In this document: positions 7,382 through 10,681 of the stretch, in pieces
Numbering within the stretch: position 1 is the first letter of the stretch
How the letters are laid out: each line of letters begins with the position of its first letter
The notes under the pieces: model-generated
The model's input: only the letters and a program-made list of their open reading frames with translations
What the model was told of the DNA's origin: nothing
Databases searched by the model: none
Made by a program: the position numbers and the translations under genes
Source of the DNA: Anaerolineae bacterium
GTDB taxonomy: Bacteria; Chloroflexota; Anaerolineae; 4572-78; NAK82
DNA length: 10,681 nt
Assembly: GCA_030598425.1 (NCBI GenBank)
Contig: JAUVPY010000041.1
Location: 1-10,681 of the forward strand
Reading direction: 5' to 3'

Positions 7382-7403
7382 GGTGACTTGTTACCCTGTC
7401 ACC
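7382..7403. terminator. Weak inverted repeat between convergent genes
   Basis: GGTGAC (7382-7387) and GTCACC (7398-7403) form a 6-bp stem around a 10-nt loop, overlapping the stop of the copper ATPase fragment. It sits where the ABC operon and the minus-strand genes converge. There is no strong T run, so it is a poor terminator candidate. Confidence 0.25.
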
Positions 7404-8264
7404 TGCGCTCGACGCAGCAACTGGGCGTTGATGGCTACAATCACAGTGCTGAGAGACATGAACAGCGCACCCAGCGCCGGCGACAGCAGAATACCGAAGG
7501 GGGCCAGGATGCCAGCCGCCAAGGGCAAGGCAATCACATTGTAGCCAGTAGCCCAAATCAAGTTCTCGGTCATTTTGCGATAGCTGGCCCGGCTCAGCTC
7601 AACGATCTTGACCACGTCCAGCGGGTTGTTCTTGACCAAGATGATGTCCGCCGACTCTACAGCCACGTCGGTGCCGCTGCCGATGGCGATGCCCACGTCA
7701 GCTCGGGTGAGGGCCGGGGCGTCGTTGACGCCGTCACCTACCATGGCTACGCGCCGTCCCTGGGCCTGCAACTCGGCCACTTTTTGGTCCTTGTGCTCGG
7801 GCAACACTTCGGCAAAGTAGCGGTCGATACCCAGCTCCTCGGCCACCGCTTTGGCGACGGCCTCGCTATCGCCGGTGAGCATGGCCACTTCAACGCCCAT
7901 CTCGTGCAATCGTCGCACCGCCTGCTTGCTCTCCGGCCGGATTACGTCGGCCAGAGCAAACGCGGCGGCCACTTGGTCGTCCTCCACCAGATAGACCACG
8001 CTTTGGCTCTTGGCGCCGGCCTCTGCCGCGAAGCGGACGAGCGTCTCTGATCGCCCCGGCTCAAGCATCTCCAGCAGGCGTGGGCCGCCCACGTAGGAGG
8101 TATGGCCGCTGTTGCTGGCCCGCACGCCGCGCTCCTTGATCGCCTCGAAGCCGGTGACGTGGGGCAACGCGAGTTGACGGTCCTCGGCCGCTTGGCGAAT
8201 GCCCCGAGCGATCATGTGTTCGGAATCACTCTCGACAGCGGCCGCTAGCGCCAGTGCTTCCTTC
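7391..8264 (-). pseudogene. copB: CopB-like P1B-type copper ATPase, 5'-truncated
   Basis: The reading frame gives the C-terminal part (about 290 residues) of a heavy-metal P-type ATPase that is normally near 700 residues. Visible parts: [14 protein letters not shown], the nucleotide-binding segment with the His of the SEHP loop but Met-Ile in place of Pro-Leu; [31 protein letters not shown] hinge; a seventh helix with GYN; an eighth helix with MSLST. The MSxST motif in the last helix is characteristic of the P1B-3 (CopB) group that exports Cu or Ag. The metal-binding N-terminus, helices 1-6 with the CPx/CPH motif and the DKTGT phosphorylation site are absent. No ribosome binding site precedes the first ATG (8215), and the frame runs without a start back to 8314. 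The break coincides with the 3' end of the next upstream gene, so a deletion joined them. Without the phosphorylation Asp it cannot transport. Confidence 0.88.
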
Positions 8265-9387: not shown

Positions 9388-9624
9388 ATGATGGGCATGG
9401 GGCTGGGCTGTGGGGTCTTTGGGCTGTTGCTCATGCTCCTCTTCTGGGGCGGGCTGATCGCCCTGGCGGTCTGGTTGGCCAGTGCCCTCTTTCCACGCAG
9501 CAACCGCGAGATGTCAATCTCGACCGACCAGGACCTCAGCGCCCAGGAGATTCTGGACAGACGTTACGTCAGAGGGGAGATCACGCGTGATCAGTACGAG
9601 CTGATGAAACAGGATATTGAATGA
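9388..9624 (+). CDS. Small SHOCT-domain membrane protein
   Basis: 78 residues. The ATG at 9388 follows AAAGGAG (9373-9379) with 8-nt spacing, which decides it over an ATG at 9241 that would add 49 residues of unnatural sequence. Residues about 8-32 are a Gly/Leu-rich membrane helix. Residues 49-77 (DLSAQEILDRRYVRGEITRDQYELMKQDI, here described by its SAxEIL-RY-GEI-YE pattern) form a SHOCT domain, a short C-terminal motif seen in many small bacterial membrane proteins and thought to mediate oligomerisation. It begins with Met-Met-Gly-Met, common in copper-cluster SHOCT proteins. Its last 17 codons and stop are repeated immediately downstream. Function unknown; context suggests a role near copper or thiol proteins. 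Confidence 0.88.
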   Translation: MMGMGLGCGVFGLLLMLLFWGGLIALAVWLASALFPRSNREMSISTDQDLSAQEILDRRYVRGEITRDQYELMKQDIE

Positions 9625-9727
9625 ACGATACTTGTCACCTAAATCACGGATCAGGGGGGAGATCACGCGTGATCAGTACGAGTTGATGAAACAGGATATC
9701 GAATGAACGATACTTGTCACCTAAATC
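9574..9727 (+). repeat. Tandem duplication of the SHOCT gene tail
   Basis: The 72-bp unit 9574-9645 recurs at 9656-9727 with only two differences, separated by 10 bp (period 82 bp). The first copy holds the last 16 codons and stop of the SHOCT gene plus its 3' flank. The second repeats the same codons but has no start and is a dead fragment. Both differences fall at third-codon or silent positions in the peptide reading, so the duplication is recent or was gene-converted. Confidence 0.92.
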
Positions 9728-9812
9728 CGGGAGGAGTATCACTATCTTTTATGTCGCATTTACCTAAAATAGGAACACCAGCGTGTGGGACACGAACAGA
9801 TGAGGTGAGAGG

Positions 9813-10268
9813 ATGAGGTTAAGCCCTTTTTCTATATTGATACTGCTCCTCCTGGTCACGATCTCAGGCATCAGCGCGTGTGCTGGCCCGGCCGGAACCG
9901 CCCAGGAGAAACTCACCCTGGCGCCCGAGTCCGCGCTGCCGGACTTCGTCCAGGATGCGCCTCCGCAGGTGAAAGAAGCCTACCGCTTCGCCATCGCCAA
10001 CCCCGACGTATTGAGTGATTTCCCCTGCTATTGCGGCTGTGGGGCGGTGGGTCACCAGAACAACTTGCAGTGCTATATCAAGGAGGTGCGTTCTGACGGG
10101 TCTATTGAGTTTGAGAACCACGCCTTTGGTTGAAGCATCTGTATTGATATCACGCGGGACGTGATGCGATTAATGGGCCAGGGCAAAGACTTGAAAGAGA
10201 TTCGCGCCTACGTGGATGCCGAATACAGCCAGTACGGTCCGCCGACCGACACCGAACCGATCCAATGA
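9813..10268 (+). CDS. PCYCGC-motif lipoprotein, probable selenoprotein (Sec at in-frame TGA 10131-10133)
   Basis: ATG 9813 follows GAGGTGAG. Residues 1-22 are a lipoprotein signal with lipobox ISAC, lipid Cys23. PCYCGCG is at 71-77, then H81 and C87, matching the PCYCGC family of exported proteins of unknown function, thought to bind metal or act in thiol chemistry. Codon 107 is TGA. The frame continues without break for 44 codons (SICIDITRDVM..., ending PPTDTEPIQ) to TGA at 10266-10268. Family members have HxxxCGxC-(IV)(DE)I here; the TGA replaces the first Cys, giving UxxC with C110. A SECIS-like hairpin follows: 10143-10154 pairs with 10160-10174 (12 bp, one G-U, a 3-nt bulge), with loop CGGGA starting 21 nt after the TGA. 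The next gene overlaps the distal stop by ATGA and lacks its own ribosome binding site. A nonsense mutation is the alternative; it would leave 106 residues. Confidence 0.8.
10143..10174 (+). promoter_or_regulatory. Candidate bacterial SECIS element
   Basis: Upper stem ATCACG (10149-10154) with CGTGAT (10160-10165), loop CGGGA (10155-10159). The lower stem ATTGAT (10143-10148) pairs with ATTAAT (10169-10174), with GCG bulged on the 3' side. Known bacterial SECIS hairpins place the apical loop roughly 16-37 nt after UGA and have a G in the first two loop positions; here the distance is 21 nt and the second loop base is G. Pairings were made by eye. Confidence 0.65.
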
Positions 10269-10681
10269 TGCGCGCCCGACTCCTCAGTTTGGTCCCCTTT
10301 GTGGGACTGGCATTGGTTGTGTTGCTGCTCCCCGCCCCTCTGACCGCCGCACCTGCTACCCGACAGGTGACGATAGAGGCCGATCAATTTGCCTTCGACC
10401 CGCCGGTGTTGCGTGTTAACCGGGGTGATCGAGTGCGCCTCACCTTACAAGCTGCTGACGTCGTGCACGGTTTCTACCTGGACGGCTATGGCATTGAAAC
10501 CCGCGTGGAACCGGGCATCTCGCAGCAGGTGGAATTCGTAGCCGATCGAGTGGGCAAGTTCCGCTATCGCTGCTCAGTCAGTTGCGGCACGCTCCATCCG
10601 TTTATGATCGGCGAACTGGTTGTCGGGCCCAACCTGACGTACGCCCGTGCTGTCGGTCTCACCTTGGTGGTCCTGGGGGCC
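10265..10681 (+). CDS. CuA-type cupredoxin domain protein, C-terminus beyond window
   Basis: The first 139 residues are visible, starting at ATG 10265 (overlapping the preceding stop as ATGA) or the next ATG at 10268. Residues 6-29 are a signal peptide or anchor. The cupredoxin domain covers about 34-121: VTIEADQFAFDPPVLRVNRGD, then H68 (VVHGFYL) and C103-S-V-S-C107-G-T-L-H111-P-F-M114. CxxxCxxxHxxM with the upstream His is the binuclear CuA site of cytochrome oxidase subunit II and nitrous-oxide reductase. The protein lacks the two-helix membrane hairpin of subunit II before the domain; a hydrophobic stretch (AVGLTLVVLGA) begins at about 128 and may be a membrane anchor. There is no ribosome binding site, so translation is probably coupled to the PCYCGC gene. 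A role in copper delivery or extracytoplasmic electron transfer is likely; the enzyme partner is not visible. Confidence 0.9.
   Translation, partial: MMRARLLSLVPFVGLALVVLLLPAPLTAAPATRQVTIEADQFAFDPPVLRVNRGDRVRLTLQAADVVHGFYLDGYGIETRVEPGISQQVEFVADRVGKFRYRCSVSCGTLHPFMIGELVVGPNLTYARAVGLTLVVLGA

Follow-up and report, generated by a model that had tools for sequence, protein, structure and literature searches.

A predicted selenocysteine-containing PCYCGC (PF13798) lipoprotein encoded next to a CuA-type cupredoxin in an Anaerolineae bacterium

Selenoproteins with the PF13798 (PCYCGC) domain have been listed before. A CYCXC family protein (hypothetical protein OS_HP4) with PF13798 and a UxxC motif, credited to Zhang and Gladyshev (2007), is found in a 2026 review (PMC13188914), and OS_HP4 with UxxC also appears in a 2022 review (PMC9312934); as far as the accessible text of the 2025 deep-Sep paper goes (PMC12013277), the nine new families described there do not name PF13798 or CYCXC. 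The corresponding NCBIfam model, NF041379, 'CYCXC family (seleno)protein', is named for OS_HP4. Another described relative is AOT13_14730 of Parageobacillus thermoglucosidasius (PMC13068155), which shares with the protein analysed here the PCYCGC motif plus four additional conserved Cys, of which one belongs to the lipobox, but differs from it in that the available part of that paper mentions no selenocysteine (Sec) and gives an Fe3+ substrate-binding protein as the neighbour; its function is stated there as unknown.

The stretch of DNA that we analysed (hereafter the window) comprises 10 681 nt of contig JAUVPY010000041.1 from a draft genome of an Anaerolineae bacterium. On its forward strand, the ATG at 9813 opens a frame in which TGA at 10131–10133 is codon 107 and which runs on for 44 more codons (10134–10265) to TGA at 10266–10268, so that the gene (9813–10268) would encode 151 residues with Sec at position 107. 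The readthrough product matches PF13798 with 113.1 bits (cut-off 25) over residues 37–148, i.e. into the family's C-terminal part, which lies 3' of the Sec codon. In the CYCGC motif (residues 72–76; 10026–10040, forward strand), C72, C74 and C76 are invariant among 83 aligned sequences, and Cys23, in a lipobox called by eye, is invariant in five relatives and at least 90% conserved in the 83. The next gene on the same strand (10265–10681, incomplete at the contig end) encodes a CuA-type cupredoxin (matches to COX2 at 39.3 bits and to Cupredoxin_1 at 37.3 bits exceed the cut-offs); its ATG (10265–10267) overlaps the stop codon of the lipoprotein gene as ATGA, while a hypothetical translation stop at 10133 would lie 131 nt before the cupredoxin start. 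In these respects, namely the PCYCGC lipoprotein identity, the 44 open codons past the TGA and the overlap with the cupredoxin gene, the first-pass annotation of this DNA was borne out. The gene product is best explained as a PCYCGC selenolipoprotein that is extracytoplasmic and anchored to the membrane.

Two other features of the window deserve mention. An 82-nt tandem duplication (9569–9732, 94% identical) takes in the 3' end of a SHOCT-domain gene and the region downstream of it. On the reverse strand, the similarity of the frame at 7391–8215 to copper/heavy-metal P-type ATPases is confined to their C-terminal half; the gene may be truncated, or its upstream part may be broken.

The window protein has several features in common with OS_HP4/CYCXC, as described in PMC13188914: the Pfam family, a single Sec and the UxxC motif. 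Since the C-terminal pair is the only one with CxxC spacing among the Cys conserved in the 83 aligned sequences, the UxxC of OS_HP4 very likely falls in the same column as residue 107. The two differ in that OS_HP4 is credited, in the same review, to a deltaproteobacterial symbiont of Olavius algarvensis, whereas the nearest named relative of the window protein comes from a Chloroflexi assembly; the adjoining CuA-type cupredoxin gene is a further contrast, drawn from the window side. Against NF041379 the window protein scores 70.8 bits, below the cut-off of 90; this cut-off was reached in none of the 400 sampled genomes of the phylum, and a protein search started from a near-cut-off member returned nothing over it or named OS_HP4. 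Judged by its sequence, the window protein is a further branch of the listed PF13798 selenoprotein family that lies below the cut-off of the existing model, and the suggestion, made in the first-pass annotation, of a possible new selenoprotein family is not supported, given the PF13798 UxxC entry in PMC13188914 and the existence of NF041379. No description of Sec forms of this branch was found in the open-licence literature searched, and a scan of viral_contigs revealed no relative.

Comparison with homologues showed that the Sec column is occupied by only three codons. In 117 distinct homologous genes it holds TGA (30 genes), TGC (45) or TGT (42) and nothing else, although the share of TGA is not a prevalence, as loci from the search of the class were added to earlier loci with preference for TGA. 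It is the column in which the family has the leading Cys of its C-terminal CxxC pair. All 30 TGA frames stay open for 39–48 codons past the column, and TGA is also found there in two genes (three loci) that escaped the motif pattern and stand outside the 117. A scan of genome_contigs, from which the best 80 of 454 loci were kept, together with five loci from the window's taxonomic family (at least one gene being common to both sets), gave 85 loci, all with the motif and with 13 TGA, 36 TGC and 36 TGT at the column, a set that leans to Cys in that one of the two scan patterns has Cys at this position. Titles of the TGA loci include Chloroflexota, Rokubacteria, Gemmatimonadales and Methylomirabilota. 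Within the window's own family, four of seven genomes contain PF13798 matches: a single TGA copy is present in each of three, namely the genome studied here and two others, and the fourth has one Cys and one TGA copy. When 396 sampled genomes of the class were searched with stops read through, 89 yielded a match, 25 of them with one TGA in the matched stretch; in one (G141) this TGA is the ordinary C-terminal stop, which leaves 24 genomes verified at the Sec column.

Bacterial SECIS elements, according to the rules given in PMC13188914, have a stem of 4–16 bp, a loop of 3–9 nt with G in the first two loop positions, a distance of 16–37 nt from the UGA and an MFE of −7.5 or lower. The SECIS-like hairpin that had been noticed 21 nt past the UGA conforms to these rules: its upper stem-loop (10148–10166, forward strand) consists of two arms (10148–10154 and 10160–10166) forming 7 bp and of the 5-nt loop CGGGA (10155–10159), with 21 nt from UGA to loop and an MFE of −9.1 kcal/mol over 42 nt. 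On its own it does not stand out: the z score is −0.67 and 47 of 200 shuffled sequences fold equally well, stems of at least 6 bp with the loop G survive in 18% of random synonymous recodings of the window, and Rfam gave no match over the window. As this single-sequence fold test is not significant, we relied on comparison with relatives. It is only against these that the hairpin becomes significant: 28 of the 30 TGA genes, but none of the 87 Cys genes, have at the fixed position a stem of 4 bp or more together with the loop G (Fisher p 5.5e-25, a value overstated, like all p values here, by the relatedness of the sequences). Stems of at least 6 bp at that position occur in 28/30 TGA genes versus 10/87 Cys genes, and stems of at least 7 bp placed freely within the permitted spacing in 28/30 versus 5/87, whereas the loosest published rule (at least 4 bp, free position) separates the two groups poorly, accepting all 30 TGA genes but also 57 of the 87 Cys genes. 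Synonymous recoding of the 30 TGA genes (2000 draws) left stems of at least 6 bp in a mean of 5.1 and a maximum of 12 genes, against the 28 observed. In MFE folds, at least six of the seven pairs formed in 18, 24 and 23 of the 30 TGA genes at 42, 48 and 52 nt, respectively.

The stem is also maintained by paired changes. In 37 TGA sequences (35 distinct), 96.7% of 245 cells pair and four of the seven pairs show changes on both sides, with 13 both-side-changed cells where shuffling gave a mean of 2.0. Seven of the 37 sequences were found with a pattern that includes the loop, which favours them, and three loci, L173 (TGA) and L220 and L223 (TGA match), were kept outside the set. Another measure of covariation, further pair types, showed no excess over shuffles (7 versus 7.2). 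The stem forms that differ on both sides are ACG/CGT, GTG/CAC, GCG/CGC and GCC/GGC; in the genes with GTG/CAC (L134, L165 and L166), Thr and Val are swapped in the protein while the stem is kept. The usual stem is absent from two divergent genes among the 30, L170 and L177 (DLCLDVTLDA and DLCMNVALDA), both of which have some rule-fitting hairpin of at least 5 bp and may use a different SECIS. The codon in the loop specifies Gln (CAG/CAA) in 70 of the 87 Cys genes and Arg (CGT/CGG) in 28 of the 30 Sec genes. This Gln/Arg difference is what one would expect if G is required at that point of the SECIS loop, and it suggests that the RNA signal shapes the protein.

The tree of these genes requires at least four Sec/Cys changes, three of them forced by starred branches, in a topology of low resolution, with 60 of the 113 inner branches open. 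One Sec gene (L168, in G159) is nested among Cys genes and carries the same SECIS and Arg codon, a pattern that suggests regain or transfer.

As for the Sec machinery, the genome that contains the window encodes selA (575 bits), selB (311.1 bits, or 354.6 with its neighbour in frame) and the C-terminal part of selD (149.6 bits, in a frame open at the locus end). The presence of sel genes, on which the first-pass annotation had made its reading depend, was thus confirmed for these three, selD in part, but not for selC, which was not found in this 63% complete draft: ARAGORN, run on three of the five Rfam loci and covering the three contigs, called the matches as tRNA-Ser and tRNA-Arg. A tRNA-Sec was called in five of the seven family genomes (G001, G003, G004, G005 and G006); in G002 the best match, the one that was run, is a tRNA-Ser. 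Across the class, selA was over the cut-off in 315 of the 396 sampled genomes, in 22 of the 24 in which a TGA gene was verified (the exceptions are G293 and G334) and in five of the seven reached via named TGA loci (not found in G398 and G401); its presence in most of the class makes this co-occurrence weak, hardly discriminating evidence.

The TGA/Cys column, the SECIS with its paired changes and the selA, selB and selD genes together lend strong support to selenoprotein synthesis by UGA readthrough, and we consider it very probable that the hairpin immediately past the UGA holds SelB and its Sec-tRNA, which would decode codon 107 as selenocysteine. If the TGA were instead a real stop, the product would be a 106-residue protein, either a functional short form or the remnant of a decaying gene. 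Database records could be read in this way: 33 of the 120 homologues listed (of 2948), one of them without an outside source, end exactly before the Sec codon, although this is also how gene callers end Sec genes. A true stop is difficult to reconcile with the open frames past the column in all 30 TGA genes, with the lack of either TAA or TAG at this position in the 117 genes and with the presence of the SECIS. Listed stops were checked in four relatives: that of L173 is a TGA in the Sec column, and those of the remaining three are at the normal C-terminus. We regard a genuine stop as highly improbable, and even less credence is due to the idea that TGA has been reassigned to Trp or another residue, or that it reflects a sequencing or assembly error; we found nothing in favour of either. 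The selenoprotein gene itself and the upstream SHOCT gene (TGA at 9622–9624) end in TGA, the column alternates with Cys codons and never with Trp, and numerous independent assemblies contain this TGA as well. On the open frames past the TGA, the restriction of the column to TGA, TGC and TGT, and the stop positions in relatives, we rejected a pseudogene, a true stop and code reassignment.

The periplasmic domain of CcmH (2hl7 and 2kw0) provided the first and second Foldseek matches of the predicted selenolipoprotein, and a profile search gave a weak match of CcmH to the C-terminal helices (E 0.016) and also a ferredoxin at E 0.05; the CcmH family PF03918 gave no match for the window protein at E up to 5. 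A relationship to CcmH is only hinted at by these results. One PF13798 protein (P0130) is fused to DUF1573, and a DUF1573 protein is encoded upstream of the Sec PCYCGC gene at L184; the DUF1573 family has a listed selenoprotein form of its own, according to PMC13188914.

Gene order points to copper. A cupredoxin gene lies at most 1.2 kb downstream in 19 of the 30 Sec loci and 68 of the 87 Cys loci, and 11 of the 30 Sec loci are without one. In the window, the downstream cupredoxin carries CSVSCGTLHPFM, which we take to be the CuA ligand pattern, and the copper context proposed in the first-pass annotation is supported by this neighbour. The product, with its CYCGC motif and a U-x-x-C pair at a helix start, would act together with the cupredoxin of the overlapping gene in thiol/copper chemistry outside the cytoplasm. 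Its most likely task would be that of a reductase or a metal chaperone, which either maintains the two CuA cysteines in reduced form or loads the copper, with Sec as a more reactive replacement of the Cys used by most relatives. On the strength of gene order, we put this role forward tentatively, rating its chance at somewhat below even. General metal or metalloid handling (heavy-metal export, arsenic), rather than CuA assembly, appears rather unlikely; it would fit the Sec copies without a cupredoxin that precede an arsC-like gene (L193) or heavy-metal P-type ATPase-like genes (L166 and L171), all named by eye, as well as the copper-type P-ATPase fragment in the window, but not the frequency with which a cupredoxin is found next door in both Sec and Cys loci. 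The CuA-related role can also be drawn more narrowly: the Sec branch of PF13798 might serve the cysteines of CuA-type cupredoxins specifically, as their selenol/thiol reductase or copper chaperone, within an uncharacterised electron-transfer module (cupredoxin, NapH/MauN-like polyferredoxin and CuA-cytochrome c protein) that Chloroflexota would share with some other phyla. We hold this version to be speculative and about as doubtful as general metal handling.

These data extend a selenoprotein family that has been listed but not characterised by a branch that is well supported and recurs; many database records of this branch stop at the Sec codon. The neighbouring CuA-type genes offer a testable idea for the function of PF13798, a domain of unknown function.
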